Shown one piece after another: positions 6,990-60,800 of a stretch of DNA of 64,000 bases. The translations under genes were made by a program, and so were the position numbers. Each line of letters starts with the position of its first letter. Within the stretch, counting starts at the first letter, position 1. The DNA lies in assembly GCA_948144175.1 (NCBI GenBank), contig CANXME010002160.1, positions 2,179,501 through 2,243,500 on the forward strand, read 5' to 3'. Under the pieces are notes generated by a model. That model saw only the letters and a program-made list of their open reading frames with translations. It had not been told where the DNA came from and did not search any database. This DNA comes from Closterium sp. NIES-65 (taxonomy: Eukaryota > Streptophyta > Zygnematophyceae > Desmidiales > Closteriaceae).

Positions 6990-7086
6990 GTTGATGCCCT
7001 TAATGTTGTTGATGTTTTATTTATGAAGAAGCTTTTGTTGGAAGCCCCATTAGCCGATCCTATAATCCAAACTAGCTCTCATACCA

Positions 7087-11400: not shown

Positions 11401-12806
11401 TGGTGCGCAAAGGGAAGACCGTGGTGTAACGCGTGTATTCGTCAACTACCAGCAGGAAGTAGCGCTCTCCGCCCTGTCCACGGACGCGGGCTGGGCCCCA
11501 CACGTCCATGTGAAGGGTCTGCAGAGGAGCCTCCGTCAGGGGAAACTCAGAGGAGTGGCACGTTGCTGCCCCTCGACACAGAGAAGGCAAGGAGGGGCAG
11601 GTGGATGGTGGCAGGGGAGGCAGTGACCTGGGGAGACCAGAGATAAGGAAACGAGAGTGCATGCCACGAAGGTGCTGCATCGAAGGGTGCCCAAGGCGGT
11701 GGTGCCGAAGGACCGTCCGGTGCGACAAGGTGCGACACGAGCAGGGGGCGGACAACTGACCTGACGCAGACGCCGCTACCTGAGGAGACTCAGTGGTTAG
11801 TGTGTACAAGTCCGACCCCGGCTGCCGAGTGAAGGTAGCCAGGTGACAACCCGTCTGGGCACACGTGCAGTGTGTCACACGCTCGTAGGCAGGGGAGAAC
11901 TGGTGAACACCCGCGTCCTGGAGCGCAGAACCCGCCAACAAGTTTGTAGAGAACGAGGGGAGGTTAAGGCCCGACAGTGTGCCAGACGGGACAGCAGGAC
12001 AAGGGAGGGCAGTGGTGGAGGTCGCAAGGACCGGACCCCCGGAGGGGTCAGCTAGGGAGACAGCAACCGGCCTAGGGAGCAGCTCGAGGGCAGTGCGGTC
12101 GCGAAAGAAACAGCGGGAAGCACCTGAGTCCAGTGTGAAGGTGTGCAGTGCTTTAGTAGACGCAGTACCTGAAGGCGCAGACGCACAAGTACCTGAAGCA
12201 GCAAACACACCTGCACGTAGAGCTGCAACCTCACCAGGGGGGCAGCAGACGCACTAGCACCTAAAGCGGCAGCCTCACCGGAACCTGGAGCAGCAGATTG
12301 GATACCGGGGTCAGGCGGCACACACAGGTGACAGGCTCCCTCGGCACTAGTAGACAATGCATACATTGCAGTGAGAATAGCATCATAGTCAAGAGCAAAG
12401 ATATCTACCCTCTGCCTAAGCAGCTCCACCCAGTCGGGGAGCTCAGCGTCGTCGCCAAACTCTGTATGCCAAGAGTCGCTCAGACGGGCGAAGCAACGGG
12501 ACTCTGTATGACCACACGTGCCGCAAGGCTGACCAGTCCGGACACCCGTGCTAATAACGTACGGGCAGCGAGCACTACTCAGCGACCCTCTACTCTGAGC
12601 GTACCACTCACGAAGCTGCTGGGGCGAAAGAGTCTCTCGCGGACGACGCTGCTGCTGCACAGGGCCACTACAAGAAGCTTCCGAACTACCCACTCCAGGA
12701 CGACTCCCACTACTGCCACCCCGACAACCCCAACTGGCGTACCACTCACGAAGCTGCTGGGGCGTGAGGGACACACGCGGACGGCCCTGGAGCTGCATTT
12801 GGCCAC
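8430..12806 (-). pseudogene. Copia gag-pol of the QLREWY/GAEPGG lineage, broken
   Basis: The gag remnant (12798-12240) has two LSPQQLREWY-type motifs, a Cys/His region (CGHTESRCFARL) and YALSTSAEGA. After a frameshift, one 1,052-residue frame (12208-9050) carries an intact protease motif LDSGASRCFF, a pre-integrase HHRLGHPS, and integrase with MDVWGP, LHSDRGVEF and PQQNGVAERR, so the D-D-E triad is complete. A long linker rich in GAEPGG and GATGAAG follows. The reverse transcriptase loses about 45 codons near 9175, is then frame-broken, and retains ILVYVDDLVLA near 8750. RNase H is absent. The protease-integrase half is among the best preserved retroelement coding stretches in the window. Confidence 0.85.
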
Positions 12807-12899
12807 GCCAGGAGCAGTATTAGAAGCAGGAGTAGCAGAAGCATCAGTAGTAATAGCAGCAGGGGCAGGGCAGTGCTCACCAGTGGTGGGAAGGGTAGG

Positions 12900-18189: not shown

Positions 18190-18311
18190 TTCTTGATACA
18201 CCGAAAGGGATATGATCCGTCAGAAAACCGATGGGTTGCAGAAGCTGATATGGGCACCGCAGTTCGTGCTCTCAATTATTATCCTGTCAAGTAGGGTGTT
18301 TCTCATTCGAC
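18190..18311 (+). pseudogene. Gypsy chromodomain remnant
   Basis: Conceptual reading RKGYDPSENRWVAEADMG then TAVRALNYYPVK and a TAG. It matches the C-terminal chromodomain tail of the Gypsy element at 34950-35040 (WKGYDPVEDSWV, ADMGNAHRALKDYLVK). Only this end survives and no LTR follows; it passes straight into a Copia fragment at about 18312. Confidence 0.7.
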
Positions 18312-27900: not shown

Positions 27901-30900
27901 TGGGGGTGCTGAGCCTGGGGGTACTGAGCTTGGGGGTGCTGAGCTGCGGAGTCAGGAGTCTGGGGGTTCTGAGTCTGGAGGTGCTGAGCCTGGGAGTCCT
28001 CCACCTGGAGGAGCCCTCTCCTCGGATTAGCTGCGTGAGTGGTACTTATAGTACTGCAGCCTCAGGAGAGGTGCCTCTGGAGCCGGGCGTGCTGCTGGGA
28101 CTGGTGCTAGTGCTTCTCCTCCTAGTCGGGAGCTCCCCTCCCGTGAGCGGATCCGTGAGTGGTACGAGCGGCGCTGCACTCTTCGGAGTGGCGCGCCTCG
28201 TGTCGCGGACCCCGCTGCGGTGAGAGCTGCTGGTGGTGCTGAGGACCCATGTGTTGGAGCTTCTGCTGGTGCTGAGGAATCGGGTGTTGGAGCTGGTGCT
28301 GGTGCTGCGGACCCGAGCGTTGGAGCTGCTGCTGGTGCTGAGGACCCAGGTGTTGGAGCTGCTGCTGGAGCTGCGGACCCGGGTGTTGGAGCTGCTGCTG
28401 ATGCTGAGGACCCAGGTGTTGGAGCTGCTACTGGTGCTGCGGACCCGAGTGTTGAAGCTGCTGCTGGTGCTGAGGACCCGGGTGTTGGAGCTGCTCCTGG
28501 TGCTGCGGACCCGAGCGTTGGAGCTGCTGCAGGTGCTGAGGACCCAAGTGTTGGAGCTGCTGCTGGTACTGCGGACCCTGGTGCGGGTGTCCCTGCTAGT
28601 TTTGGTGTTGCTGCACAGCCACGGCCGTACTTCGTTCCGCTCCTTCAGAAGGTTCTCGGTCAGCTCCCTCCTCCTTGTCCTCCTCCCTCCTTAGAGTGTC
28701 CTCCGTCTGTCCAGCTGCAGTCGCAGTTACCGTCTGCCTCCTCTCTCCCTGGTCCTGCTCCTTACACTGGTCCAACTAGAGGTCTTACTGATTGTCGTGA
28801 GCCTGAGTCTCGTCCTGCGTTGCCTGAGTCTCGTCCTGCGTTGCCTGTCCGTACTGCTCTCACTGGTAGTCGTGTCTAGCGTCAGCGTCTTCCTGTTGTC
28901 CCAGGCACTCATTGGATGGCGCTTCGTCCGTCCACTGCTCCACAGCGTGTCCCACTACCGTCTCCTCCTGCATCCTCTCTTCCTGCTCTTGCTGACCCTG
29001 GGTCAGACTCTCTTCATGCTGCCAGTCCTACTATCACGCGTCTCCTGGCTACTGTTGTCACTGACCCTTCCTTTGAGTCTGCTGCTGCGTCTACCTTAGT
29101 TGCTGAGCTTGTCGACTTTGCTGCCACCTTTCGTCTAGACTACGCTGCTAGCCTGGTTGCTGAGTCTGAGTCTGTCTGTCCTCCGTCCGTCGGGGGTGAG
29201 TGTGCTCTTGGCACTGACGTCCTTGAGGACAGGCGGGAGGAGTTTGAGTGCTTTGCTGCCGCTTTGCCCCATCTCGTGTCCATGCTTGTTGCCCCTGAGG
29301 GAGACCCGGATGCACCAGACATCCCGGCCCCACGCTCTTACGCAGAGGCGATGGCCGGTCCCTACTCCTCTCAGTGGCAGTCGGCCATGGACACAGAGAT
29401 GGCTTCCTGGAAGTCCACAAGCACCTACGTCGACGAGGTTCCCCCACCTTGGGCGAACATCGTCAGTGGCATGTGGATTTTCAGGGTGAAGCGGCCGCCG
29501 GGCTCTCCGCCTGTCTTCAAGGCGCGTTACGTTGCACGAGGCTTCAGTCAGCGAGAGGGAGTTGACTTCTTCCAGACCTTCTCCCCGACCCCGAAGATGA
29601 CCACTCTTCGGGTTCTGCTGCACGTCGTCGCTCAGCGTGACTACGAGCTCCACTCGCTTGACTTCAGCACTGCTTTCCTACAGGGCAGCCTGCACGAGGA
29701 GATCTGGCTGCGCCGTCCACCTGGCTTCACTGGGTCGTTCCCTCCTGGTACCCAGTGGAGCCTCCGACGGCCAGTCTACGGTCTCCGCCAGGTGCCTCGT
29801 GAGTGGCAGGACACACTGAGGACTACACTTGCGGCTCTTGGGTTCGCGCCTTCTACTGCTGACCCGTCGCTGTTTCTACGCACCGACACCTCACTGCCGC
29901 CATTCTACGTCCTTGTGTACGTCGACGACTTGGTCTTTGCCACTGCTGACACTGCGGCACTCGCCCACGTGAAGTCGGAGCTGCAGAAGAGACACATGTG
30001 CACAGACCTGGGCGAACTGACAAGCTATCTTGGCTTGCGGATCACCCGGGACAGAGCACGCCGCACCATTACCTTGACTCAGTCACACATGGTGCAGCAG
30101 GTCCTTCAGCGCTTCCGCTTCACGTACTCCTCGCCTCAGCCCACTCCTCTGCCTACCGGTCACTCGCTCTCAGCTCTGCCTTCGGATGAGTCCGTAGAGT
30201 CAAGTGGCCCGTATCCAGAGCTTGTGGGTTACCTCATGTACGTGATGACCTGCACTCGACCTGACCTTGCATACCCTCTCAGCATTGTTGCACGCGATAT
30301 CGCTCCCGCCCGTCACCGGAAGGAGCACATGGATGCAGCTAAGAGGGTGTTGCGCTACTTGTGCAGTACGTTGGGCATGGGGCTAGTGCTTGGAGGGCGA
30401 GTCCCAGTTGTTCTCACTGGTCACTTAGACGCTTCTTGGGCAGACGACCAGGCTACTCAGCGGTCGTCTTAGGGTTACTCCTTCAGTCTTGGCTCTGGTT
30501 CTGTTTCTTGGCGTTCTACTCACTCTTCTTCTGTTCTCAGCTCCAGTTGTGAGACTAAGATCTACGCCACAGCCATGGCGGCCCAGGAGCTACGCTGGCT
30601 CACCTACTTGCTGACCGACCTTGGAGAGCAGCCTCGTTCTCCTCCAGTGCTGTACGTCGACAACAAGGCAGCCATTGCCTTGTGTGAGGAGCACAGACTG
30701 GAGCACAGAACGGAGCACATTGCTTTGCGTTACTTCCTTGCTCAAGAGCTGCAGCAGCGTGGTCAGCTTCGCCTGCGCTACGTGGCCTCTGAGGCCAACA
30801 CTGCTGATGTGTTCACCAAGGCGCTTCAGCCTTGTGACCATCAGCGTTTTTGCACTCTTCTAGGCCTTGTGCCTACTGGACCTCACTTGCTTATTTCTTG

Positions 30901-32415: not shown

Positions 32416-35069
32416 AAGAATATTACTTCTCGTGGGTTTCAAGCCTATATTAAGGGAGAGTCAGAAATTAAACCGGTAACGGGTATTATGGGGACCCTAC
32501 TCCAGAGCGCTAATACGGGTCGAGCGTTCCGAGGAGTTAATATTCTCTCCCAGCAGCACTGTTTAAAGGCTCCCTGTTCCCCACAGATGAAGCCTACACA
32601 GCTGCAAAGGCTTAGTGGAAGGTTCCAGGCCTAAGAGAAGCCGAATCGGCCTCGGATAAATCCTTCTAACCTTTCTCAATTGAAAACTGGTACTGTAGCT
32701 GCATCTTCGAGCGCAGGACCTAGGGATAACATATTCGACGTACCCTACGATCCTATAAGCGATACCATCCACGGATACTCGGAGCAGCAGCAACCACTAG
32801 TACTCAACGTGATCTGCAACGGGCGTGGCCTCCAGGCCCTGGTGGACAATGGTGTGTCCCACTCGGTGTGCGACCGCGGGACGTTGGAGAAAATTGGACA
32901 ATCCTCAGAAGAAACCCAGTTTACAGCAACGATGGTGGACGGTACGAAGCTTCCCATCCACGGCAAGTCAACACTGTAGCTGCAGATAGGGGCGTTGAGG
33001 TGGAAGCCGACGTTGCCGATCACGAACATTAAGGGATTAGATTTCAACTTGGAGCAAGATTTTCTGAAGCGGTTCAACCCCGAGATCAACTGGGTCAGCC
33101 GGAAAACGGGCATCTACAACAACGGGAAACTAGTGGAGCTACAAAGCTGGACGGATACAGGGAGCGTTCCTGAAACGACACTGGCACGGTTCGAACGGAC
33201 AGTGAACGAGAGTAACACGGGTTACTTCGCACTGGTTATGGCAGCAGCAGAGGAGGAGGTCTTGGAGCAGTACAAGGATATAATGCCCGACGACCTACCC
33301 GCAGGCGGACCTCCAGCACGCACCCACGAGCACGAGATAGTGGAGGAACCAGGTGCAAAACCCGTCTCACGTGCACCATACCGACTGAGTACGGCTGAAC
33401 TGACAAACATGAAAAAACAGATAGAGTATCTACTAGACAGACAACTGATCCGCCCATCCACCTCTCCCTACGATGCACCAGTTCTCCTCACTCCACAGCC
33501 AAACGGTAGTTTACGGATGTGCATCGACTACCGCGCACTGAACAAACAAACAGCACTGACTACGGCGCCAGTACTCATCCTACCGGATCCAGATAGAGAC
33601 TACGTGGTGGAAGCAGACGCTAGTGACCAAGTAGTCGGAGCAGTACTGATGCAGCATCACGAACGCAGTTTGCAGCCCATCGCCTACCTGAGCAAGAAGT
33701 TATTACAGTGGGAGAAAGACTTAGCTGTAAGGAAGGGTTCAGGAAAGATTTGGGTACCGAATTACGATGCTACGGGAGATCGTATTGGAGGAGTTTCACG
33801 ACGTACCTTACGCGGGACATTTCGGGAGCAACAAGGCGTTAGCAGGGATAGCGAAGTATTACTACTGGCCCGGGATGGCAGCAGACGTGCAGCAGTTTGT
33901 CACCTCTTGCGACACGTGCCAGCGGATGAAGAGTAGCAAGCAGCAAAAAGCAGGGTTACTTCACCCTCTACCCGTACCGGAGCAGCCATGGCAGGTCATT
34001 AGCTTCGACTTCATCACAGGACTTCCTTCGACCTCACGGGGGCACGATTCCATCCTTGTAGTAATCGATAAGTTCTCCAAAATGGGTCACTTCATACCGA
34101 CCAACGCCACAGCTACAGCTGAAGCAACTGCTCGCCTCTTCTTCCACCGCATCATCACCATCCACGGCATCCCCGCTACACTCATCTCAGACAGAGACCC
34201 CAAATTCACGAGTAAGTTCTGGAAGGAGCTCATGGGACTATTGGGGACAAAGCTTGCAATGTCTTCAGTATACCACCCCCAGACTGACGGACAGACAGAG
34301 CGACTCAATCAGGTGGTTGAACATTTATTGCGCACAGCTTGCAAGGACGACGTCAGCCACTTGGACACAAAGTTACCGACTCTAGAGTTCGCCTACATCA
34401 ACACCTCGCATGCGGCCATAGGGAAAACACCTTTCTTCCTGTGTTACGGACGGGAACCACTCACACCACAGCAGCCAACCACACCGGCACACGTTCAAGC
34501 CGCACATGATTTCGTCACCACCATGCAGCAGCTATGGGAGAAGACTCAGCGACGTCTCACCACGATGCAAAACTCCCGGAAGCAGTATGCCGATCGTCAG
34601 CGACAAGATCACTCAGTAGCAGTCGGAGATCAGGTGCTTCTTGACACGCGCAACTTGAACCTGTCTCACCTACCATCCAAACTCCGGCCTCGCTTCTGTG
34701 GTCCCTTTCTCGTTGAGGCACAAGTGACACCAGTAACATTCCGCTTGCGCTTACCTACTACTTGGAAGCTTCACAATGCTTTCCATGTGCAGCTACTGAA
34801 ACCCTACAAGGACCCCAACCAACAGTTCCAGGGACGGCAGCTACTGCCACCTCCACCTGTTTTTGTGCAGGATGAACCCGAGTACGAGATTGAGCGCGTT
34901 CTCTCTCATCGGCGCCGCGGCGGCATGATCCTCGAGTTCCTGATAGGCTGGAAGGGATACGACCCCGTTGAGGACAGTTGGGTTACATAAGCTGATATGG
35001 GCAACGCACATCGTGCTCTCAAGGACTATCTTGTCAAGCAGGGTGTAGCTCACGCCACCCAGCTTTGAG
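32416..35069 (+). pseudogene. Gypsy pol: protease, shortened RT/RNase H, integrase, chromodomain
   Basis: The protease-like region at 32680-32978 has ALVDNGVSHSVCDRG (DNG where DSG/DTG is usual) and ends in a TAG. The reverse transcriptase starts APYRLSTAELTNMKKQIEY and reaches CIDYRALNKQ (33535), then jumps directly to the RNase H motif YVVEADASDQVVGAVLMQ; the palm with YxDD is deleted. A second deletion/frameshift near 33750 removes the end of RNase H. Integrase (33767-34990) has the HHCC finger (H..GHFGSNK, CDTCQRMK), FDFITGLP, SDRDPKFTS and TDGQTERLN, then a chromodomain EYEIERVLSHRRRGG, FLIGWKGYDPVEDSW. A TAA at 34988 interrupts the last residues, which continue ADMGNAHRALKDYLVK to 35069. 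Confidence 0.88.
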
Positions 35070-42800: not shown

Positions 42801-45800
42801 CAAACCTGCAAAAGCTCGCTCTCTAACTCAGTTGTGCCGCCTTCACTAGAGTGCTTCTCTCACTTTCACTACGTGACCATGCGCTGTTCTTCCACATGCA
42901 GTACTGCCCTGTGCTGTGACTCCCTGGTCCACCGACTATAATAGCCTGACTAGAGTGCCCTGTGCATCCTCCAATCTCCACGCCCACCAACAAGAGCTCA
43001 CTAGAGTGCCTGTGCCCATCCTCGCCACCCTCCTGCCCTTGACCGCACTGCAGGGATGTCACCGGCAACTTTAATGTCCACCGCTCTGCACCTTTCCCCA
43101 CTGAATGGATGGCATTCACAGGGCTGCAAACTTTGTGAGCCATCCACCGCAACAAGAGCACAGAATTTTGATTTGACGTATTTGAGCTGCTCAGGCCGCT
43201 CCCACCATTCTATTCCTGTTTGCCTGGCTGGCCTGTATACCCACTGCTTTGCCCACCAGCCAACCAACAACTCGTCCAGCTCTCCTCTCCTCCCCACCAA
43301 CCCCGCCCTCCCACTTCCACCTCCAGGAGGGCCGGTCCGAATGGCTTTACTGGCTCTATCCCCTCCACCATCTCCGCCCTCACTGCCCTGACTGAGCTGT
43401 ACGCCTCCCTTCCCACCCATTCTCTTCTCGATTTCTTGGTCATTCCCTCCCCACACAATACGCAAGCATCAAGTTGTATGAACCAGGTTGTGAGCAGCAG
43501 ATTTAGAGCACCAGGTTAACAGCACCAGATTTTGATGTAGCAAGATGCGAGGGCCAACTTGGAAAAGGGATAGATATGTGAAGGCGGTTCATCCTGTCGT
43601 TTCCTACAATGCAGCGCCAACGTCTCTCCCCTCCTCGAAATGGCCCCATCAGGCAGCTCTATTTTAACAACCTCACAGAAAGCATCCCTGCCGGCATCTC
43701 CAAGCTCGCTAAACTGAGATATCTGTAAGCCCCTGAAAATTTTGCTGTGTTTTTCTTTTTCACCATGCTTTTCAGACCGAATCAGCGTGCAAAAGAACGT
43801 CATTGGGCCAGCTTTGGAGATAATAACTGAGTTGCAAAATCGCAAGCAACCAGTAGCTTGAAGCCATCCCTGCGCTTGTATGGAATGACAATTCACTGCA
43901 CAGAGTTGAATTGCCATAATTCGAAAGTCCATGCATGCCTTTTGAGTCAACTAAAAAACCTCCTTAATTCACGTGTATGCATTGGCCTCTCCCCACACGT
44001 GCCTGCCTCCACACAACACAGTGGGCTCTCCTACAACAATCTCACCGGCGCCGTTCCTGCCACTCGTGCATTCCTCCAGACCATGTGAGTTTCTAACACA
44101 CACCTCTCCTCACAAGCATACGAGGGACAACCAACGGAATTAGCTGGTGAACTCTCCTGGTAAGGCTCTTTCACTATGCCTTTTCCTCTCGTGGCAGTTT
44201 TTCTTCAAAAATCTCTTCGGATTTTTCTGCTGTTGCTGCTTCGAGAATGTATGTATGTGTTTCTTTCGGTTACAAGGGGAGCTCTTTGTGCTGCGTTTTG
44301 CTCTTGATAGCAAAGGCTGTGTGAATTCAGATTATCTCACACCACCCAGTTACATGCTGTCACGCATGTTATGTTCAACAGACCCGCCTCGTCCTCCTCC
44401 AAATAGCTGTTCAAAATCGCACATCCCTTTGCCGTGTAGCAGTCAAGCACTTCCACCCTTATTTCAGCATGCATGTCCCTTCTCTATTCAACATCCCTCT
44501 CCTCTCCACCTGCCCTCACTACGTGCCCTCATTGTGTGCAGAGAGCTCTCCCACAATCACCTCACCACCATGCCTACTGCCATCCATGCGCAAAATATGT
44601 AAGTCCTAGGAGGATTGAGGGTACGTGGACGTGAGCAAGAGAGAAGTATATAAGGTCCTTGGCAAGGGGTATGCCACACAAATTATTTTATGAGGCTTCT
44701 CATTATTTTGCTCGGTGCCAGAAAATTAGTGCTTTGAGTGAGCAAGCAAGTGCCCCACTCCCATGGAAAATGCTCCACTAGGAGCAACTGGATCCCTATG
44801 TTCCTGGCTAGGGGTTTTTTTTGTGGCACTATTTTGCCGTTGTTCGGTTATGCAAAGGACCATTCGAGAGAGAAAGTGATGGGTGATGTTGCTTTAGAGT
44901 TCAGAGACTTGACTTGACCTGCAATAAGCTCGTGACTTTTGATATCAATGACATGACCAAGAAGCTGAGCTTTTGAGAAAACTGACATGAAAAGAGTCAA
45001 GTCAGGTTGACATAAGTTTGTTTTTGTCAATGATTTATGGACTGGACTGCGGTGAATGTAACGTTGATTCAGTCAATTGACCTGAGTGAAGTTTAGGATG
45101 GCTCAAATCGAGTGCTGTCTTACATCATTAGATGGGTTGCCTGTTAAGTCAGTCTGGTAATCAATTTAGTTTGGCTTGAAGTGGAGTCAAACCCAAGTCA
45201 CCGGTCTCACGGGCCGAGGTGGTGCTTGCTCATGTCATGCTTGCGTTCAACTGTTTTGCTGTCTCACTGTTTAGATCAAGTTACAGAAGCTTGCAGAATG
45301 TCAGCAACTTTCAATGCATGGGAAAACAGTCGACAAAGCTTCAAGGTGGCGTAGCAGTATATGATTGAAATCTCTCCACCCTCCCCCACCTCTTCCATCC
45401 TTCCCTGTCCCTTGCAGCAAGCTGAGCCACAACGACCTCAAGGGATCCGTGCCCGTCAATGGAGACGTGTATAGCATGTGAGATGTGCCGCCCTGCCCCT
45501 TGCATGTCACGCGTAAGTACCGGGTCCAGTACCCCGCACCCCTTGCGAATCACCTGCCTTGTCTCCTCCACCAGGCACCAGCTTTCACCGCACACCGTGT
45601 TACATCTTGGCCGCTCGGCAGAACACACAGCTGCCATGCAAGGCCAACAATCTCAGTCTCAGAGGCGCTTCCACATAGTGGGTCCATCATGCCAGCTTGA
45701 CATGATTGGGTTTTAGTGTGAGCCCTTTGCCGCCAATGGCTCGAGCAAGGTGAGTGAAGCCCACCTTGAAACAACCTCGTGAATCCAGGAGAGTTGAAGA

Positions 45801-48800
45801 AACTACCTTACAGGGCTTACAGACGAGTGCAGGCATCACAAAAACCCTATGCCAAGTTTGGTCGAATTTTGATTTCGATTGTCTTCGCGTAAAAAAATCC
45901 GTAGCCAATTTGGACCGACGGTTGGAGTCATTTGATAGGAGCTCCGAGACACATCTCGCGACAAGGCTTGGCTCGGTTCAAGTTCCAATTTGGCACGCGA
46001 GCTTTTCCGGATGACATTCCGACGCAATCCGTTTTGTTGCAAATTCGTGACCAATTTATTCAATACTAAATTCTGTTTTTGTTCATTTTGGATTTTGGGG
46101 ATTTCAAAATTGCATTTATTATTGCGGTTTACAAGAACCATTATTCAGCATGCTAGCAACAATCAGTCTTAGCACCAGGTCAAATAGCCTACGCATTGGC
46201 GGGCCTTGAAAGCGCCCGGTGGGCAAGGACGACATCTCCAAGGTCGCCGTCGTCGATGAGGAACTTGTTCGGAAAGACGAACGCACCCATAGCCGGATCG
46301 TGAGGGATCCTCCGCTCCACGACAGCAAAATGGATCATCTGTTTGACCTTTTCGCACCACTCCTGGTAGTCTGGCCTCTTCTGCTCTGGCTGGCTACTGA
46401 TTCGCTTGCGACGCTTATCCTGCAGAAGGGGCCATTCGATCTGCAATGTGGTGTAGTAGGGCTGGGTGGGTGGTTTATGAGGAGGGTAGGTTACGGGTAA
46501 ATGAGGCAACTGAAAGCGGTGATGCAGTCGTCACTATCTACGTAACTGCAAAGGCCTAATCGACCAGGGATTAGGGTTGAAGTACACGCAAGGGGTTAAG
46601 GGGATGAGGCATAGGGGTACAAACACATATCTACATCCTTACCGAAAACAGGCCCCATGCCACCATGCGGCTCTTGAACTTGGTGAACACCGCCCCGCCC
46701 CTCTTGAAGGAGATCTTGAACGCATTAGCGAACAAGGGGTTGCTGAAGGGCGTCCCGGTGGCCTTGTCAAAGTGCCAGTTGAGGGCCCACTGTTCTGTTT
46801 TTTGGCAGGGAGGGTATGGGTTGGAAAGGGTTTTGTAGAGAAATCAAGTGGGGGGATGAGTGTCAGGGTGAGCCACATCGCACGGTGATATGTAGCTGCC
46901 AACTGGCATATGGTAGGGCATATTGTGTTTTCGAGTTGCACATACCATCTCTGTACTCGGCTAGGAGTTGAACGTCATCGAACCAGGTCGTTGGGTGTAG
47001 CTCAGTGGGCAGGCTATCCACGAGATGGCTGTAATCAGCAAGGCCCATGCCGGTGTATGTTGCTGGCCTGAGGGTGGAGTTGATAGTTGACCTTGTTGAG
47101 GACAGCTGGTGGTTGAAGACTCCCATGGTTGACTTGTCATTGTGCAACCACAGCAGCTTCATTGCCTCGAGCCCTTCTGCAGACAAGTGGACAGAGAACG
47201 CTTCGAACACTTCCTCCGGTGCAGGGTAGTACTGTATTTTCTCCGGCGGATTCAGAAACATGAGCTGAGAGCACACTAAGTAGGCTTTGTTCTACGCAGT
47301 GGTGTAAGGTATACAACACGACATGGGAGAGAGAAACCAGCAGTTATGTGGGTGGCCGCGTGACCATGGGATTGTGACTAGCAACACTGTGTGAACTTGC
47401 CACGTCACACCCTGCGCCATCCGACACGTCCACCAACAACCCGGCCCATTCTGCCACGTCACACCTCCCTACCACAAGCCACGTCACCCCCCACCCACCT
47501 GACACGCCTCGCTTCGTCATGCGCAGTTGTCACGTGTACCTTTTCTAACCGCCACGTCATCTCCAACCCTCACATGCTGCCACGTCACACCCACCTGCAT
47601 CCGCCACGTCATCCCCAACCCTCACCTTCCGCCACGTCAGACCCTCCTGCATCCGCCACGTCCACCAACCAGCCCCACGTGCCACATCACACCCTCCTGC
47701 ATCCGCCACGTCCACCAACAACCAGCCCCACGTGCCACGTCACACCCTCCCATCCCATGCCACGTCACCCCCCCACCCACCTGACACGCGTCGCCTCGTC
47801 AGTGGCCGCTCCTGTGTACCATTCCAAACCGCCATGTCAGCCCCAACCCTCACATGCTGCCACGTCACACCCTTTTGCATCCGCCAACAACCCGCCCTAC
47901 TTGCCACGTCACACCCCCACCAAGAGCGACGTCACCCCCCACCCACCTGAAACGCCTCGCTTTGTCATGCGCCGCTCACGTGTACCCTTGTAGGGTGCCA
48001 CGTCATCCCCAACCCTCACCTTCCCCCACGTCACACCCACCTGCATCCGCCACGTCATCCCCAACCCTCACCTTCCGCCACGTCACACCCTCCTGCATCC
48101 GCCACGTCCACCAACCAGCCCCACGTGCCACGTCACACCCTCTTGCATCCGCCACGTCTACCAACAACCAGCCCCACGTGCCACGTCACACCCTCCCATC
48201 CCATGCCACGTCACCCCCCCACCCACCTGACACGCGTCGCCTCGTCAGTGGCCGCTCTTGTGTACCATTCCAAACCGCCACGTCAGGCCCAACCCTCACA
48301 TGCCGCCATGCCACACCCTTTTGCATCCGCCAACAACCCGCCCTACTTGCCACGTCACACCCCCACCAAGAGCGACGTCACCACCCACCCACCTGAAACG
48401 CCTCGCTTTGTCATGCGCCGCTCACGTGTACCCTTGTAGGGTGCCACGTCATCCCCAACCCTCACCTTCCCCCACGTCACACCCACCTGCATCCGCCACG
48501 TCTTCCCCAACCCTCACCTTCCGCCACGTCACACCCTCCTGCATCCGCCACGTCCACCAACAACCAGCCCCACGTGCCACGTCACACCCTCCTGCATCCG
48601 CCACGTCCACCAACAACCAGCCCCACGTGCCACGTCACACCCTCCCACCCCATGCCACGTCACCCCCCACCCACCTCTCACGCGTCGCCTCGTTACGCGC
48701 GGCTCCTGTGTACCATTCCAAACCACCACGACAGCCCCAACCCTCCCATTCTGCCACGCCACACCCTTTTGCATCTGCCAACAACCCCCCCTACTTGCCA

Positions 48801-51800
48801 CGTCACACCCCCCACCAAGAGCCACGTCACACCCCCCACCAAGAGCCACGTCACCCCCCACCCACCTGAAACGCCTCGCTCCGTCATGCGGCACTCCCTT
48901 GCACCCTTTCACGCCGCCACGTCATATCCCAACCCTCACCTTTTGCCATGTCACACGCACTTGCATCCGCCACGTTCACCAACAACCCGCCCCACTTGCC
49001 ACGTCACACCCACCCACCCCATGCCACGTCACCCCCCACCCACCTGATACGCGTCGCCTCGTCACGCGCCGCTCCCGTGTTCCCTTCGAACCCGCCACGT
49101 CAGCCCCAACCTCGACCTTGTTGCCACGTCAACCCCAACCCGCCCCATTTGGCCCGCCACATACCGGGAATGGGTTTGTCTCCTGCAACACTAGCACTCG
49201 TGCCTTGTCCACGGCGCTCATCGGCGGCGGGGTACCAGCCATAGGCAGGGCTTCCGACCCGCCGGCATAGCTGGCAGGTACTCCACGACGCAGGCCGAGC
49301 TGTGCAAACATGGCGTACATCTCAGACCGCAGCGCCTGGAACTCCTCCCGTGTAACAAACTGCTCGTGCTCCTCACTTTCACCTAGGGCACCCATGAGCG
49401 GAGGAAAAGGGTGTGAAGAATCCCCCCTCTGGCCAAGGGTATCAACGTCTTCTGCAGCAGTCCCGTGTGCCCTCACACTATCACGCTGGCGGGAAAAGGG
49501 GAGCTCAGGGAAGGGATTGGCATAAGTGCCTGCCTGATGCCCGCGCGAAGGACCGGCGATGGGGGAGACCGCCCTGCCCCGGACAGGAGAAGCGTGGAGT
49601 TGCCGAAATGGGTACGAGGGTGAGGCGAGTGAGGAGTGCGTGACGGGGACGGGTGGAGGGGATTCGGATTCCTCTCCTCTTGGCGCGCCGGGTGCCGTCG
49701 CAGCGACTTTGCTGGGGCCGGCCCATGGCGTGTAGAACCTTGGTGCGCCGGACGAGAGCGGAGTAACACTCGCTATTCCGGCAGCCTTCGTTAGATGCAT
49801 TCGTTGCACGCTTAAGGGCGGCCCAATGCCTGTAACGCGAGGGGCTGAGATGTAGAGGGAGTGGGAAAATAAAAATTGGAGTCGATCGGTTTCAAGGCGG
49901 GGCCAGACATGCATGCATATTCAGAAAGGTTTGAATCTAGATCGGGTTTAGGGTTGTACTGGTTTGAGACAAGAGGGTTTACCTTGCTTGGCAGATTTGT
50001 CAACCTTCTCCTTCCCTGCAGGAGAGAAACAATGTGAATAAAGGGTGTTATTTGGGACGGTTTAGCAGATTGTTTAACACGTAACGCCAGTTGTATTGGA
50101 CACAATGCTCACCTTTCTGTTGTCCCTTCGGTTTTAGGGCAGCCTGCGCCTTCTCGTTGCCACCTTTCCGCGGGGTGCTTCGGCGCACGCTGCGACGTTT
50201 ACCGGCAGGTTCCTTCTTGCCGGTACCCACTCGATCCCCTTTGGCGCGGCCACCCTTTCCTCCTCCATCCCCTTTTGCACCCTGGCTCCCTTGCTTTTTA
50301 CCAACCCCTTCACTTTCGACCTTCACCTTACGCGCCTTCGGTTTGCCCGCTGCTTCGCCGCGCGCAGCGTCACCTGCCCCGCGTTTTCGGGAAGGGCGAG
50401 TCCGGCCCCCCTCCTTCCCTGTCCCACTCACCCGACCGCCACGCCCGCCCCGTCTCTTCCCTGGCGCCACATCCTCCTCCTCCTCCTCCTCCTCCTCCTC
50501 CTCCTCCTCCTCCTCCTCCTCCTCCTCCTCCTCCTCCTCCTTCTTTGATGCCTCCTCCTCCTCCTCCTCCTCCTCCTCCTCCTCCTCCTCCTCCTCCTCC
50601 TCCTCCTCCTCCTCCTCGTCACCCTGCTCCTCCTCCTCATCCCCCTCCTCCTCCTCGTCCTCCTCCTCCTCCTCCTCCTCCTCCTCCTCCTCCTCCTCCT
50701 CCTCCTCCTCCTCCTCCTCCTCCTCCTCCTCCTCCTCTTCGTCCTCCCCGCCATCATTCTCATCTTTAGCATCCTCCCCAACATCCGCGTCTTGCTCCTC
50801 CGCTTCCTCTTCATCCTCCTCTCCCTCCGCATCCTCCTCCTCATCCTCCTCCTCCTCCGTATCACCGGGGTCTTCATCGCCCCGTTTTGGCCTCGTTCCT
50901 GTCGCTGCTTTCTTGCCTCTCCTTCCGCCAGATGCTTTTCTTGCTGCGGGGCGGCCCTTCTGGCGCAATGCTTGACCGCCCGCCTTGCCACTAGCTTCCT
51001 TGGCGCCTCGCGGTGTGTCAACTTCCGCGCCTCCGGCGTTGTCAGCACTACCTGTTGTCTGGCGCCTCTTCGCCCGCGTGGTGAGGTCCCCGGGCACGGC
51101 GGTGTCATCATCCTCCTCCCCATCGCTCTTCCTTTGCCTACGCCTTCCTCGTCCACCCGAAGGAGGAGAGCCACCGACCAGCCCCACCGACTCGTGCTGT
51201 GCCACCTTGTCCTTATCCAGCACGGCTGCAGAAACTTCGACCACGCTCGGCTGGAGCAGCGTCAGATGGTGTTGCGTTGCCGCCTCCTCGGACTCCTTGG
51301 TTGCGGCATGCTCGGCGCGAGGATCGCCTCCGTGATTTCCCCCTGTCGCCGAACCCTCCATCTCCGCCGACGGGAGTGCAAGACTCGCGCTCCCTCGCCC
51401 CGGATCTTCGTTGCCGCCAGTGGTGCCGTCTTTACTCGGACCGGGCTCGGTTCCAGCAGAGGCACCATCCGCAGCTTTGTTCACTGTAGAAACACGCTTG
51501 CGTGGCGTTGGTTTAGGCCCCTTGTCTGCCGCTTTCTTGCCGGCCTCCTGTTGACCGCGCGCGACCTTTTTTGCCACTGCTTTTTCCGGCCCAATGCCAC
51601 GAGCGACGGACGCATTGTTTTTTTTAGCGCCGCCACCACTCTCCCTATCGATTTGTTTAGACGTCCCCCTTGTCGCGCGGCGGCCGGCCTGTTCCTCCTC
51701 CATTGCTTGGTTACGTGTTGCACGTGTCATGGTAATCGTAGGAAGAGAAAAGTTGCAAATCGCGCGGAAGGGTTGAGCCGGTTTCGAAAGGGTTTTGCTA

Positions 51801-54800
51801 CTGAATCCCACGAAGGCATAATCGGCCGTCTATCACTGTTATGTGTTTACGAAAACAGCCGCTTCAACTAAGTCTGAAATAGTAGCCACTATGCTTCGCG
51901 CTAAGGCCGATCTGGAGAGGCGTGTGTCAAGGCAACGAGCAGCGTCAAAGTGTTGGCCCAGGGAGTGACGGAAGCAGGTGGGTGGGGCACGAGGGTGGTT
52001 GGGGTGAGTTGCGAGACAAGAGAGAGAAATGTAACCCTATCAGGCTACATTGGACGGTGTGCGTGTAGCCACCCTAGCATAAACCCACCTTCTGCTCGAT
52101 CTCAGCCGCCCAATGGCTGAAGTACCTCTTGGCTGATGACTGTGTTGCGGGGGGAATCGTTTGAGATGCGTCGGCCAATGACGGTTGCCAACACATCAAT
52201 CACAACAAAGGGTAAACCTGGTGTGAAACCTACAGTGCGAAATTAGTCAAATCCCTGCAAAGTACAGTGTTTTCGGTTGCAAAGTAACAACGCATTTCAT
52301 CAAACTCTAAGTTGCAACTGGTTTTGTACAGGGTTGGGGTAAGTTAATCCGTGATTCTCACGTCACACACACAACGACCGTCTTGAATTATTACTTAGGA
52401 AAGATGTACTGCGCACTTTTAGGCTTTGCCACAATGGTTTAGGGCCAGCGGACGTCATTCTAACACGATTATCAATAATAACAAACGTGAATCCGTTGTG
52501 GTATGGTGTTGGATTGTCATCCATTCTTGCACAGACATTACACAAGGTGCTTAGAAGGAGTGGTATGAAGCACAGGCCCAACGCACAAGCGTAGATGCGT
52601 TATCGACAGTCATGTTTAGACTGTGCGACGATGCATCGTTCACGCCTCCGCGTTGCTCGACTTGGTGAATCCGTTGTGGTATGGTGTTGGATTGTCATCC
52701 ATTCTTGCACAGACATTACACAAGGTGCTTAGAAGGAGTGGTATGAAGCGCAGGCCCAACGCACAAGCGTAGATGCGTTATCGACAGCCATGTTTAGACA
52801 GTGCGACGATGCATCGTTCAGGCCTCCGCGTTGCGCGACTTGGTGAATCCGTTGTGGTATGGTGTTGGATTGTCATCCATTCTTGCACAGACATTACACA
52901 AGGTGCTTAGAAGGAGTGGTATGAAGCGCAGGCCCAACGCACAAGCGTAGATGCGTTATCGACAGCCATGTTTAGACTGTGCGACGATGCATCGTTCAGG
53001 CCTTCGCGTTGCGTGACTTGGTGAATCCGTTGTGGTATGGTGTTGGATTGTCATCCATTCTTGCACAGACATTACACAAGGTGCTTAGAAGGAGTGGTAT
53101 GAAGCACAGGCCCAACGCACAAGCGTAGATGCGTTATCGACAGTCATGTTTAGAGTGTGCGACGATGCATCGTTCAGGCCTCCGCGTTGCGCGACTTGGT
53201 GAATCCGTTGTGGTATGGTGTTGGATTGTCATCCATTCTTGCGCAGACATTACACAAGGTGCTTAGAAGGAGTGGTATGAAGCGCAGGCCCAACGCACAA
53301 GCGTAGATGCGTTATCGACAGCCATGTTTAGACAGTGCGACGATGCATCGTTCAGGCCTCCGCGTTGCGCGACTTGGTGAATCCGTTGTGGTATGGTGTT
53401 GGATTGTCATCCATTCTTGCACAGACATTACACAAGGTGCTTAGAAGGAGTGGTATGAAGCGCAGGCCCAACGCACAAGCGTAGATGCGTTATCGACAGC
53501 CATGTTTAGACTGTGCGACGATGCATCGTTCAAGCCTTCGCGTTGCGCGACTTGGTGAATCCGTTGTGGTATGGTGTTGGATTGTGATCCATTCTTGCAC
53601 AGACATTACACAAGGTGCTTAGAAGGAGTGGTATGAAGCACAGGCCCAACGCACAAGCGTAGATGCGTTATCGACAGTCATGTTTAGACTGTGCGACGAT
53701 GCATCGTTCAGGCCTCCGCGTTGCGCGACTTGGTGAATCCGTTGTGGTATGGTGTTGGATTGTCACCCATTCTTGCGCAGACATTACACAAGGTGCTTAG
53801 AAGGAGTGGTATGAAGCGCAGGCCCAACGCACAAGCGTAGATGCGTTATCGACAGCCATGTTTAGACTGTGCGACGATGCATTGTTCAGGCCTCCGCGTT
53901 GCGCGACTTGGTGAATCGGTTGTGGTATGGTGTTGGATTGTCATCCATTCTTGCGCAGACATTACACAAGGTGCTTAGAAGGAGTGGTATGAAGCGCAGG
54001 CCCAACGCACAAGCGTAGATGCGTTATCGACCGCCATGTTTAGACTATGCGACGATGCATCGTTCAGGCCTCCGCGTTGCGCGACTTGGTGAATCCGTTG
54101 TGGTATGGTGTTGGATTGTCATCCATTCTTGCACAGACATTACACAAGGTGCTTAGAAGGAGTGGTATGAAGCACAGGCCCAACGCACAAGCGTAGATGC
54201 GTTATCGACATTCATGTTTAGACTGTGCGACGATGCATCGTTCAGGCCTCCGCGTTGTGCGACTTGGTGAATCCGTTGTGGTATGGTGTTGGATTGTCAT
54301 CCATTCTTGCGCAGACATTACACAAGGTGCTTAGAAGGAGTGGTATGAAGCGCAGGCCCAACGCACAAGCGTAGATGCGTTATCGACAGCCATGTTTATA
54401 CTGTGCAACGATGCATCGTTCAGGCCTCCGCGTTGCGCGACTTGGTGAATCCGTTGTGGTATGGTGTTGGATTGTCATCCATTCTTGCACAGACATTACA
54501 CAAGGTGCTTAGAAGGAGTGGTATGAAGCACAGGCCCAACGCACAAGCGTAGATGCGTTAACGACAGCCATCCATTCTTGGATATTCGTTCTTCACGGTG
54601 CGGCACGATATATGTATTTGCTCCAAGCACCAATCATACGTTACGGCATGGAGTTACCGGGTAGTTCCCGTATCGTTATCGAGTAAGGATTGTTCAAGAA
54701 CAGTCCCAAGGATATGAATGTTTACTATTTATGAATGATACGAGTTTCTTGTTAAGTTGTAACTGTACATATGCATTTCCAGGTTTGTTTGACGCCTCTG

Positions 54801-57800
54801 TAGCTCACCTACGTAATTCCGATTTTGAGGCTATATCGATTCGCGACACAATCAGAGATCCAAACGGATCTCTTCCTGCTCTTCCTCATCCTCCTCGACT
54901 CTCACGCACAGTTCATAAAAACTTGTTCTAGACTCAATAGGCACGTCCTTCTCGCCTTGCTTGCGAATCACATACACGACCATGAGACTTAAGATCCAGT
55001 GCATCTCCCCTGGCCACGTCGTGGTCGCTGTAAACGGGGGCGACACGCCTTGTAGGGAAGACGGCCCGTGCTATGGGCGGTCTGTATCGTGCCTGGTAAC
55101 GACCACGCGGCTCGACAACGTTAGCCAGTCATATACACTAGCGCGTGCGTCAAGTGCCAGTCGTGCAGTGATACAAGCCGCCCACCACAGTGCGCGCATT
55201 GGCGATGATCGTGTAGCTGTCACAGACTTCTTGAACGGGGTAGTTAATGCGTTCACAAGCTTCATCACGGGTAGTAGCTTCATAGGCCAGGTCTCGACTC
55301 TACAACGGATCCGTAACTGATGGGCTCTTTACCAGGCGTCGTTTGCGAGTTCTGCAACAGATGGTTCCCCAATGCCCAAGTTTATGGCGGTCATAAGTCA
55401 CGGCGGACCCCTTGCCAAGGACTATCCGCCGTGGCGAGGCCCACGCGATCTGCACCGACCGCCGGTCTTCACTCTTTGCTATTCGTCCACGACATTCTGT
55501 CGGACGCTCCAGCCGCTCCCGGTTCACCTACAGCGTCTAACGCATCCAACGCCGTCAGTGTGAGCCGACCTCCACGCGTTCCTGATGCTCACGTTGACGA
55601 AACTCCCAACGACGTGAACGAGGGGCCTCCTGAAGATGAACATCAACCACGGCATGGAGCTCCTGCGGCTGAGACGACTGACCATCCTGAGAGCCGGCCC
55701 GAAGGGAGTCATGCCGCGCCGCCAACCGTCATCTCCGGACAGAGCAATGCCATGCCCCTCAATCCGCTCGCGTTGAAGCTACTGCATTTCGTCCGGCGCG
55801 TGAATGGCGGAATGGGAATGGCCGAGGTTGACATCAACGGCCTGCTTCAGCTAGTCGTAGAGCCTGGCCTTGCGCCTCTTGTGAACTCGGAGCTCCGGAA
55901 CTGTAAGGATCTGGAGCGGTTCGAGTTGGAGCGCTTGGCAGGGTTCAATCGCGGATGGTCGGTGGCGACCTTCGAGATTGACGGTCATCCACCACAGCGC
56001 TTGCTCTTCCAGAACTCAGCCCAGGTAAGCCGACTTTGCATTCAAGGCCGTGAAATGATGATGAGGCACACAGGGTTTGCATGTACTTAGTTATCCTTGT
56101 ATTAACCGTACACCCACCTTCTCCGCCACAAACCATGCCTCTCCTCTCACCTGCTTTCGCCACCGTACACCAGGCATTCGCTGAAATGTTTGGACATCCC
56201 AACAACGCGCCCGGCTTCAAGCTCAAGGCGCGTGTAGATGAGGACCCTGACGCAGGCGGCCGTCGCTATACCACGCCCGAAACAGGAACGTGGTGGAATG
56301 ATGCTCAGGTAAGGAAAGACCACGTTGCCACCCCAAACCCAATCCTGAGTCATGCATCCATCGCAGCACTGATCTCTCAAGAGCATCTTGAGTGTTAAAC
56401 CGTGTGTCCGTTGCCGCTTCGTCGTGCACTGCAGGAACACTTCGGTTGGTCCGAAGTTGTGGGGGGGATCATCTTATATTCGGATGTGACGCACATGAGC
56501 AACAACGGCCGGAAAAAGGCGTGGCCGCTCATGATGACGCTGGCGAACATCGCCCAGGCCAAGCGATGGGGGAAAGCCGGTCACACACTACTTGCCCTCC
56601 TTCCAATCCCCCCATCTGCAATGTCTGCCGTGGAGAAGGTCATGCTCTTCCAGCGTTGCGTCATCACCGTGCTGCAGCCGCTTCTTGATGGCATCGCCAG
56701 GTCCGTACTCGGTTTGCATCTTGCTAAGACATCATCTCACCACCTGCATGGTATGCAAACCCTCTCTGTATGTAGCATGGCCCTTTGCCCCTCGTCGTTC
56801 CTCCCTAAAAGCCGCAACCTTGAATGCCTGTTGCCACTCACTCCATTCCTTGCAGTGGGTTCCGTCTCAGGGACCCTTTCGGAGATTGGCAAACCGTGCG
56901 GCCCCTGCTGTACGCCCGGGTGTGCGACTACCCCGAGAGCGGCAAAATCAGTTGCACACTCTCGCATGGATCGCGGATGCCGTGCAGCATCTGCTATGCT
57001 GCAAAGGTGAGGTCACATGCCATCTGCACGCATTCAATTACATTCCCGTTTGTGGCTCGCCTGAGCGAACCCACATAGCTACCACCCTTACCTTTTCTAT
57101 CCCATCCCTCGGCCCCGTGCTACAACAGGAGCATCTGAGTGCTGTCAAGGCACGGAACACGCCGCGCACGCCTGAACAGCAGCAATGGATCGTTAACGAG
57201 GCGGCGGGGACGACAACTAGCCAGGACAACCCGTGCAAGGCCTACTCTACCTACCCTGTTGAGGTGAGTGACCTGTTTCCCCGGCCCATGAGTAGTCTAT
57301 GCTCTCGCCCGCCCCGTCATGAATTGCCAGATGTGCTCTGCCCCATTGAACTCACCCGACTTGTGGTTTAGATTACCTATCCACTCTCACGTACATCTCT
57401 CCTCCATTCCCCACCACATCCCCATTTCCAGTGCGTGCTTTGGAAGTGGGATGTCCCAGGGACCGCGTGGGGCAATCCCTACCTTGTGGTGATGCCTGAC
57501 ATCATGCACCAGGCGGACCTAGGCATCATGAGCCACATTGTGGCTGTCGTGCGCAAGATGAAGAAGCGGCGTGTGAAGCAGATGGACAGGTCAGTGTTTT
57601 GGGGATTGGATTCGTTGCTCCTGGTCACAATTACTCAAACCATAAGTTCTGTCCTATTACTGGCCTGTTTCTGCCCTTTTGGCGCCGCTGAACTGATGTG
57701 TATGGGCAGGCGCCTGTCTCTCATTCGCGACCGCACGCGCCTGAATCACATGCGCCTGCCGGAGAGCGCCTACTTCGAGACCGGCGCATGTGTGGCGGCC

Positions 57801-60800
57801 TATGAGCACAGAGCCGTCATGCAGGTATGAACCCTCCATTCCCTGTTGCTTGTCCTGGCCTAAACCCTCAAGCAGTCTGCTCATGCTGCCATTGTCCGTC
57901 ATGCTCCACTCCTCACACCATCTGTGCTCACCCTCCCCTTTGCTGCTATCCACGTTCTTTGCAGGTCATGGTGTTTGTTTTTGCAGGTCTGTTTCGCCAG
58001 CCCCAGATGGATGCCGTTCGTGCCTATCTTGGCTGGTACATCCTGTGCTCCCAGCCACAGGGGCACACTGAGCGGTCCCTCCGGGAGCTGAAGAAGATGA
58101 CCTCTCGGTAATAATATCACGCATGTAAATCCCTGTGCATGGGATGTATGCTTGGCTACTGTAAATGTGCTCTTGTAGTAGGCAATCTTGTGAGGATGTT
58201 GCTGCTAAACTTTGATGAAAAGGATCAGGAATAGGAAAAGCATATGAATAAGTAGACTCTGTGAATGCATGTGTTGTCATCTCCCACTCCCATCAGGCTC
58301 GTTGAGCAGTTGCAGGCTGCGTTTCCAAAGCAGCCATCCTCTTGGTGCCTTGTGAAAACACATCTCATGTCGCACTACATCGACTCCATACGTCGGGCGG
58401 GTCATGTGACTGAATTCAGCACCAACATGTTCGAGCACTTGCACGGACCGTTGGTAAAGAGGATCTACCGTCGGTCCAACAAGCGCAATGTAGATGGGCA
58501 GATCATGAAGTTCCATGCTAGGCGCATTTCGGATGTGGTGCCGGTGGATGATCCTGCCGGTCGGGACACCGCCATGCGGCAGGTAAATCTGTTTAGTGCT
58601 TGAATTGCATGGATATGAATGCAGAATGTAATAATATCAATAGCATATGTTGGCAGGCGATTGAGACCGACACACGGACGCTCATCAAGGAGTCATACTC
58701 CCTCCCTGTGGAGTTGTCACAAGAATCCACCTCTACCAACTGGTTTGCAAGGAAGTGAGCCAAGCAACACCCTCGTGCCCAAGCTGCCCTCAAGGATGCG
58801 CTTATGCGTTATGCAGGATGCGTCACCAAGATTCGAGTAAGTAGTTGCAAGTTTATGCAATCAACCATCATTTTGGCTGGCTCGTATCATACATGACTAA
58901 CATCAACTGTTATGCAGGCCCATGCATCGCTGGCAATCCCTGCAGCAGACGACGCCACCTTCTCAAGAGTGTCTCACTTCGTTCGAGCGACCCCTGACTA
59001 TTTTGAGAAGCCATGGTACTCGGATGTTGCAGTGGAGGGTGTAAGGTATGGTCGGAGAGAGGAGTGGTATGCAAGGTTGCTTCTGTTGTTCCATACCAAA
59101 ATACGTGGAGAGAGGGAGGAGCTGGCTTACGTTAGATATTGGAATGCAAGCGGAGAGGATACAGCAACAGGATGCCTTCGCCTCAAGTGGACGACAGGAA
59201 TGTACGCGTACTCCGTGATTCCCATTGAAGCGCTACTCCGCCACGTCCATGTGGTGAAGGCATTCCATCTGGACAGTACCTATCTCATTAATAAGTATCA
59301 AATGTGATGCATTTATCTTGTAATAAAATGGCCAGCATATTTTCATGCAGTCACATTTTAGGGAAGTCAAAGCTTACAAAACCAGTTACAAATTCAGAAC
59401 AAAATTGGCAAGCTTAAAAAAACCGGCAATGTACCGGAGTCGCGGATTCGATTTCGACTTCGACAAACAAACGCGTTCCGAATTCATTCCGTGATTGGTC
59501 GCGATCTGGCTTCGGAAATTCGCCAACCAAAACACCTGAACTGTACCCCCCTTCGAACCCCCTTCAAAAATCAAGGTTTTTTGTGATGGGCAGGCTGCCT
59601 TCGAGGTAGATAGCGAATCCCCCCTTCAATGGGGACCCCTCCATTTAACAGGGTTGGGGAGCAGAGGCACTATCATCGCTGCACACACCACAACGGCTGG
59701 CTGTGGCATGGGTACGGTCAGGACAAAGCCAGCGCAGCACACCTGAGGAGTCAGTTTACAGGGAGGCGACGGGGCAGCAGCGACTGCCGGAGTGTCGGCA
59801 GCGGCTGCTTGTCCTTGAGCTGCTGTAGCTGGTCCGTGCTGTGGGCCGCCTGTCAATCACCGTCGCGTCAGCGGCGGCTGTTGATTCCGCGTCAGCCGCG
59901 AAGATCACAAGCGATCGGGGCAGAGTGTGTAGTTCAAAGTATAGGCCCTCTTATCCCTCTCCTTGTTGCTTTATGCGCGATGTATAATTAGTCTATGAAA
60001 ACACTTGTAATTGCTTGATGAATCACTCTCTCTCCCATACCTGTCTGTTCCCCATCACTCATGGTTGGGCACATACACACTAATTTGTCTATGAATGACC
60101 AACACCTTCCCAAACCACGAGACAACAGGTGCAGAACAGCCAAGGGGTTGCATTAACAACCACTTCCAGGCGCTTCCTCCCTTTTTCTCCATCCATCACA
60201 CTGCATGTGTCTCCCTCTCCACCTTTGCCCTTATCACCAGTGTTTGCTTGCCATGCTAACCATCTCTCATGCCTCCCACAGAGACCTCAGGTACAATCCT
60301 CTTAGTGGAGGCTTGGATGTGCTCCTTAAAACGTCCACAACTGGTCAATTACAGTGAGTGCTCAAGATGTAGTTCATCATTGTGCGATATGTGAATCAGA
60401 AATGGTTGTATCGGATGTTAATATTGTCAATTCGTACATCTCCTGCTCATCCTACTTGCTTCCACTAGGATGATCGTAATTCCAAGGTTTATCTGTCTAC
60501 CTTCATTCTTCCTTTATATCCTTACCCTCTTGACCTATATCCACAAATCAATCCCCCTTTTTTCCTATCCCCACCTCATTATCCCCCCTTCTTTCTTCCC
60601 CTCTCCAACACGTTTTTCATCTTCTGTCCTTAGGATGCTATATGCCGCATCATGCAACTTCTCAGGCCCATTTCCATCCTACCCCAACATAAATTTCGAA
60701 AGGCTGTAAGCTTCTCATGGATATCCAAGTGGTACGTTTGAATAGAAGTTGCACATCAGTCTCGACGTAACTCATCAATGCCTGTGTAAGGTACAACTCT

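Follow-up and report, generated by a model that had tools for sequence, protein, structure and literature searches.

A probable PlavakaB-like DNA transposon with a second predicted gene in an intron of the streptophyte alga Closterium

The window analysed here comprises 64,000 nucleotides of a contig (CANXME010002160.1, positions 2,179,501 to 2,243,500, termed C1862) from the 874 Mb assembly in 2,400 contigs (GCA_948144175.1) of Closterium sp. NIES-65, a zygnematophyte (PMC10407611). Within this window, an intron of a leucine-rich repeat (LRR) gene is occupied by one mobile unit with short inverted ends, which contains two divergent spliced predicted genes and a satellite between them (Table 1). 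One gene encodes a transposase and the other, the open reading frame (ORF) termed ORF2, a protein with a Glu-rich middle. Judged from its sequence, the unit is very likely a cut-and-paste DNA transposon of the Plavaka superfamily with resemblance to the PlavakaB group. A mobile unit of this organization in a streptophyte had been proposed in a sequence-only reading of the same DNA, made ahead of any database search, and this view is borne out by the same layout in other copies of the element and by the identity of the host.

Table 1. Coordinates of the transposon, its predicted genes and repeats, and the adjacent host exons in the window.
Feature	Position	Strand	Remarks
Whole Plavaka transposon	45834..59588	.	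13,755 bp, termini CATCAC...GTGATG; from the C1872 end-to-end alignment and two empty paralogous introns
Left terminal inverted repeat	45834..45848	+	11 bp perfect, 14/15 with one mismatch; base-by-base comparison
Right terminal inverted repeat	59574..59588	-	base-by-base comparison
Target-site duplication, left copy (GG)	45832..45833	.	one GG at both empty sites
Target-site duplication, right copy (GG)	59589..59590	.	one GG at both empty sites
Plavaka transposase gene	55320..59307	+	11 exons, 887 codons
Transposase exons 1-6	55320-56024, 56174-56308, 56435-56700, 56856-57006, 57129-57263, 57432-57589	+	
Transposase exons 7-11	57710-57824, 57965-58107, 58297-58582, 58657-58836, 58918-59307	+	
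In-frame premature stop, transposase codon 732	58756..58758	+	in this copy
Second gene, ORF2	46189..51730	-	6 exons, 1,012 aa, Glu-rich middle, open in the window copy
ORF2 exons	51730-50113, 50015-49983, 49829-49165, 47264-46946, 46794-46643, 46440-46189	-	exon 3 start could be 49844
TCC trinucleotide tract encoding ORF2 poly-Glu	50472..50858	.	
178-bp satellite	52487..54571	.	11.7 units, between the two divergent genes
Tandem array	47429..48836	.	446-bp period of GCCACGTCA-rich units, inside ORF2 intron 3
Host LRR exon upstream of the insert	45418..45477	+	KLSHNDLKGSVPVNGDVYS; phase 2
Host LRR exon downstream of the insert	60282..60353	+	DLRYNPLSGGLDVLLKTSTTGQL; phase 2

The boundaries of the element are defined by its relatives in the genome. 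The alignment with copy C1872, at 98.67% identity, spans exactly 45834-59588, and because this match goes no further, the right end is placed one base before the 59589 of the sequence-only reading, whose left end was correct. Both termini read CATCACAAAAA, in line with the short inverted ends that had been predicted. In a genome search with the left tip (best 40 of 204 candidates scored), 34 of the 39 matches outside the window start at query position 34 or 35, equivalent to 45833 or 45834, and the remaining five at 30, 33 or 36. In the equivalent search with the right tip (best 40 of 195 candidates scored), 33 of 39 matches stop at query position 269, corresponding to 59588, and the other six at 270, 271 or 276. 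There are 138 exact matches (79 + 59) to the 20-base left tip in the genome, a number that refers to tips and not to whole elements, whereas the reversed control pattern does not occur at all, and the recurrence is thus not due to chance. Nine full copies end at the same two points, and the case of shared coding parts with ends elsewhere, which would have spoken against a single unit, was not encountered.

The length of the target-site duplication (TSD) is revealed by two related introns of LRR genes on C1862, in which a search with the element sequence found no match and which thus lack the element altogether, rather than containing its genes without the ends. Both read GAGTGCAGG^CAGGCT with one GG, and in both the end of the left flank and the start of the right flank overlap by exactly 2 bases. 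The first intron is 98.2% identical to the window on the left and 94.0% on the right side, the second 85.3% and 91.5%. Since both empty paralogous sites carry a single GG, the TSD in the window is 2 bp long; the 5-bp GCAGG of the sequence-only reading results from the natural GCAGGCAGG already found at the target. At least 2 identical bp are also located directly outside CATCAC/GTGATG in 29 other copies at 25 further sites. Including the window, this amounts to 30 copies at 26 distinct sites, with a duplication of at least 2 bp at each of them and of exactly 2 bp at 23; the three sites with more agreeing bases contain CCC, GGG or a TA repeat. The sample consists of nine of the ten large copies and all 20 copies taken as 60-base end pieces, with copies of shared flanks (C1954/C1890; C2225/C1997/C1960b/C786) counted as single sites. 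The flanks of C2251 (CC/CC), in one of which a chance GTGATG is found, were read by eye. Outside this count are four of the 33 other copies, all three diverged ones among them, namely C76, C1541, C1052 (right end beyond the fetched piece) and C221, whose left tip differs from the CATCAC terminus. A second type of empty-site evidence is offered by copy C461 (C461:818061-849977), for which the flanks alone were fetched. Since the family's own satellite flanks this copy on both sides, TA is duplicated and its position is between the two ends of another copy, it very probably represents an insertion into the satellite of the latter; its target sequence occurs 11 times in the satellite of the window.

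The interior of the element recurs as well. ORF2, the satellite and the transposase are found inside the same outer ends in the window and in all nine fetched two-ended copies, eight of which measure 12.2-13.7 kb. The ninth, C149, is 19.9 kb long and contains a piece of about 6.8 kb without match to the element, and another non-matching piece, of about 7.3 kb, is present in C76. Several other copies extend over 19-32 kb between their ends as judged from coordinates, their insides not having been fetched. The core of the satellite is repeated 5-12 times in the window and in each of 10 other copies, always with a spacing of 178.

The introns of the transposase gene are all of the GT..AG type, and its stitched product matches the Pfam family PF18759 (Plavaka) with an E-value of 5.6e-31 and 108.4 bits compared to a cut-off of 26.3. 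In sequence order, this protein contains D297, D393, C412/C415, H625/H629 and E649. Members of the CMCT clade are defined by catalytic D, D and E residues with CxxC and HxxxH motifs between the second D and the E (PMC12730594), and the window protein has both motifs between D393 and E649. A zinc-finger-like motif at the N-terminus is weak (Pfam E 0.14, under the cut-off), and a profile search against solved structures retrieved zinc fingers only (best E 0.46). PF18759 is matched by all 13 Closterium relatives in alignment A1, which were themselves drawn from search matches. The entire gene with every splice site is found in eight of ten fetched copies; its frame is open in five of these, two of which share one insertion site, and interrupted by one or two premature stops in the other three. 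Of the two incomplete genes, the one in C76 breaks off at exon 10, where either an insertion or the end of the fetched stretch cuts it; in the one of C149, exon 1 is interrupted and the donor of exon 10 is changed.

The assignment to PlavakaB is based on features described for this group, which include 5'-CATCA..TGATG-3' termini and a TSD of 2 or 3 bp (Kojima 2025, PMC12730594). Both are displayed by the Closterium element, with CATCA..TGATG in the window and 29 other copies and 2 bp duplicated at the two empty sites. With fungal PlavakaB it shares the Plavaka transposase, termini, 2-bp TSD, D-D-E residues and the CxxC and HxxxH motifs (PMC12730594). It differs from them by its zygnematophyte host, the 11 exons of its transposase, a comparison that did not extend to fungal exon structure, and the internal 178-bp satellite.

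The second gene is predicted on the opposite strand. All of its exons are present in nine of ten copies, and in five of them it is open with every splice site intact. It is also open in C1890, where the exon-3 donor is changed, contains stops in C32 and C1960, the latter with a changed exon-2 acceptor, carries a frameshift in C1872 and is left with a partial exon 1 in C76. The length of exon 1 varies among copies, in eight of nine by multiples of 3, which slippage of the 3-bp repeat alone could explain. Two pieces of the protein, with poly-Glu and the adjacent following residues excluded, gave no domain worth naming in Pfam up to E 10, and the same holds for its C-terminal 240 residues in searches of NCBIfam and of solved structures (best E 0.79). 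Among about 8,000 candidates scored, 15 protein relatives were found, all from Closterium NIES-53, NIES-54 or NIES-65.

Evidence for constraint on both predicted genes comes from C1541, a more diverged copy whose pieces are 91.5-95.4% identical to the window and which contains both genes as far as fetched (transposase exons 1-8). The in-frame ratio of nonsynonymous to synonymous substitution rates (dN/dS) is 0.26 over 582 codons of the transposase, compared to 1.00 and 1.82 off frame. For ORF2 it is 0.47 over 818 codons, compared to 1.33 and 1.56, and for its exons 3-6 alone 0.44, compared to 0.89 and 1.57. The comparison with this one diverged copy thus indicates purifying selection on both predicted genes, and both exon chains look like real coding genes that were retained. 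With eight closer copies the ratio for the transposase is 0.23-0.62, and with C221 it is 0.50 for the transposase and 0.53 for ORF2; the test by reading frame thus discriminates with C1541 alone, since at the small divergence of the closer copies the off-frame ratio is no higher. The coding parts of the transposase in eight copies are 98.9-99.3% identical to those of the window, and such near-identical copies elsewhere in the genome point to a recent spread. Among nine copies, 71 of 77 transposase variants are singletons and 52 are C>T or G>A, a pattern expected from a recent burst and subsequent decay rich in transitions, judged from the variants and not from a tree, with cytosine methylation as a possible source of the transitions.

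Several observations weigh against our assignment or limit its reach. Both the movement of the element and its exon chains are predicted from sequence, and the PlavakaB label relies on termini, TSD and motifs and not on a tree. As judged by regular expression, two of nine relatives lack some of the motifs, P0012 ending ahead of HxxxH and the E, and P0017 being without the first D and HxxxH. Copies were selected by the similarity of their tips, and the agreement of the termini is hence partly a product of selection, which does not apply to the flanking duplications. With respect to constraint, the transposase of C1541 contains a stop at codon 213, and in C221 an off-frame count for ORF2 exons 3-6 is 0.43, compared to 0.53 in frame for the whole gene. 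Finally, ORF2 is tied to mobility through its position and selection only.

In a possible mechanism, the transposase would bind the short CATCAC ends, perhaps via its N-terminal zinc-finger-like motif and with the help of the second protein, excise the element and join it to target DNA with a 2-bp stagger. Since its own transposase is broken, the window copy would probably move only with transposase from other copies. The Glu-rich protein most likely has an accessory role, be it in binding, in targeting or in counteracting silencing. A second protein is familiar from plant En/Spm elements, which encode TnpA and have CA..TG ends and a 3-bp TSD; the Closterium element thus resembles EnSpm/CACTA in its two-protein layout and CA..TG ends but differs in its TSD. 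EnSpm/CACTA and Plavaka belong to the same CMCT clade (PMC12730594). Our more specific and tentative proposal, which we consider rather unlikely as a whole, is that Closterium carries a PlavakaB branch with two proteins, in which the Glu-rich partner, specific to the lineage, similar to TnpA and independently invented or acquired, is required for movement and the satellite serves as a regulatory or binding array. If true, neither such a partner for Plavaka nor a complete Plavaka element from a streptophyte would have been described before, as far as the literature was searched.

ORF2 could instead be a passenger that is not needed for movement and was kept for other help, for example against silencing, a possibility to which we assign somewhat less than an even chance. 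TET/JBP genes are known as extra cargo of fungal Plavaka and other transposons (PMC12730594), and the predominance of C>T and G>A among the transposase variants is as methylation-driven decay would give. Against a passenger speak the lack of a known enzyme domain in the searched parts of ORF2 and its presence in every complete copy fetched. The Closterium element differs here from the TET+ families of fungal Plavaka, which carry TET/JBP (PMC12730594), in that no such domain was found in the searched parts of its second gene.

That the ORF2 gene and the satellite were brought by other insertions, with the transposon confined to the transposase half, appears very improbable. The 15 ORF2 matches include no protein from Yama58-4, despite transposases of this strain that are 88-89% identical (about 8,000 candidates scored each), as would suit two separate elements. 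Yet ORF2, satellite and transposase share the same ends in the window and nine copies (with exon 1 interrupted in C149), and the diverged C1541 has both genes as far as it was fetched. A chance joining of the two genes at this locus is rejected because of the same layout in other copies; an acquisition deeper in the past may still have taken place.

Extremely improbable is a KDZ (Kyakuja/Dileera/Zisupton) element whose duplication would be longer, as envisaged in the KDZ half of the KDZ/Plavaka label of the sequence-only reading. In its favour, an earlier review had put Plavaka close to KDZ (PMC12730594). Against it, the 887-residue translation matches up to E 10 just PF18759 and weak zinc fingers, the families listed for the 13 relatives, up to E 1, include no KDZ model, the TSD is 2 bp compared to 8 bp for Zisupton (PMC12730594) and the CxxC and HxxxH motifs of the CMCT clade are present. 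The Plavaka half of that label is thus retained, in agreement with the view that Plavaka is recognizably similar to EnSpm and that its former position close to KDZ needs correction (PMC12730594).

In its Plavaka assignment the element is not isolated. Among the best 123 of 1,397 candidates scored, PF18759 has 133 matches in this genome, the last ten of which are second pieces of listed genes, compared to none in 14 control genomes; because of these matches, Plavaka is regarded as a large and mixed population in this Closterium genome. Three other Plavaka loci (C440, C2232 and C1692) encode a transposase of about 35% identity in a long ORF (588 aa) preceded by tandem arrays, and show no ORF2 match within about 3.1-4.0 kb upstream, a distance too short to reach an ORF2-like position. 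Protein relatives of the transposase are all labelled Closterium (22 in one search, 41 in another), with no fungi among them because only the approximately 8,000 best-sharing candidates were scored.

The claim of the sequence-only reading that such an element would be new or poorly described was overstated, as Closterium proteins are already labelled Plavaka in Pfam and EnSpm-Plavaka, likewise a Plavaka-type DNA transposon in a green alga, has been named in Auxenochlorella, where it was called potentially active with insertions polymorphic between haplotypes (PMC12633428). Latter host is a chlorophyte, whereas Closterium is a streptophyte. No description of a Plavaka element from a streptophyte was found in the literature searched, and the main text of the Closterium genome paper contains none of the terms EnSpm, CACTA and KDZ. 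The kind is thus already known, and the novelty lies in the second gene and in a complete anatomy from a streptophyte. To a superfamily described mainly from fungi the element adds this anatomy, together with proven empty sites, from a group of algae close to land plants. It also suggests that copy numbers in Closterium increased recently and offers a clear test case for the role of second genes in CMCT transposons.

Mixed gene models in the annotation of Closterium could also result from insertions as large as this one. In three public models (P0005, P0016 and P0025), lectin/peptidase, retrotransposon or LRR domains are fused to sequence of Plavaka or ORF2; these are probably annotation mergers across insertions, and chimeric transcripts would be an alternative.

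The host gene consists of 13 short exons, picked by eye and each encoding approximately one LRR, with four before and nine after the insert. All are divisible by 3 in length and of phase 2. Canonical splice sites are found at all 13 acceptors and at 12 of the 13 donors, and translation of the joined exons gives an LRR protein (LRR_1 1.1e-39). The element inserted into a pre-existing intron of roughly 1 kb, with the exon phase kept on both sides, as the sequence-only reading had it for the phase; this intron extends from 45478 to 60281 and would measure about 1.05 kb without the element. Two close relatives of the host gene on C1862 (1588300-1591300 and 2259700-2261200) contain the same intron without insert, and with at least two such relatives on one contig the gene seems to be part of an LRR family that expanded locally. 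Upstream of it, the window contains long ORFs on both strands which by eye we take to be Ty1/copia-like polyproteins (1611-7016, 9050-12819, 18249-20727 and 25164-30472). ORFs at 32980-34990 presumably encode a Ty3/gypsy-like reverse transcriptase/integrase with a chromodomain-like end.

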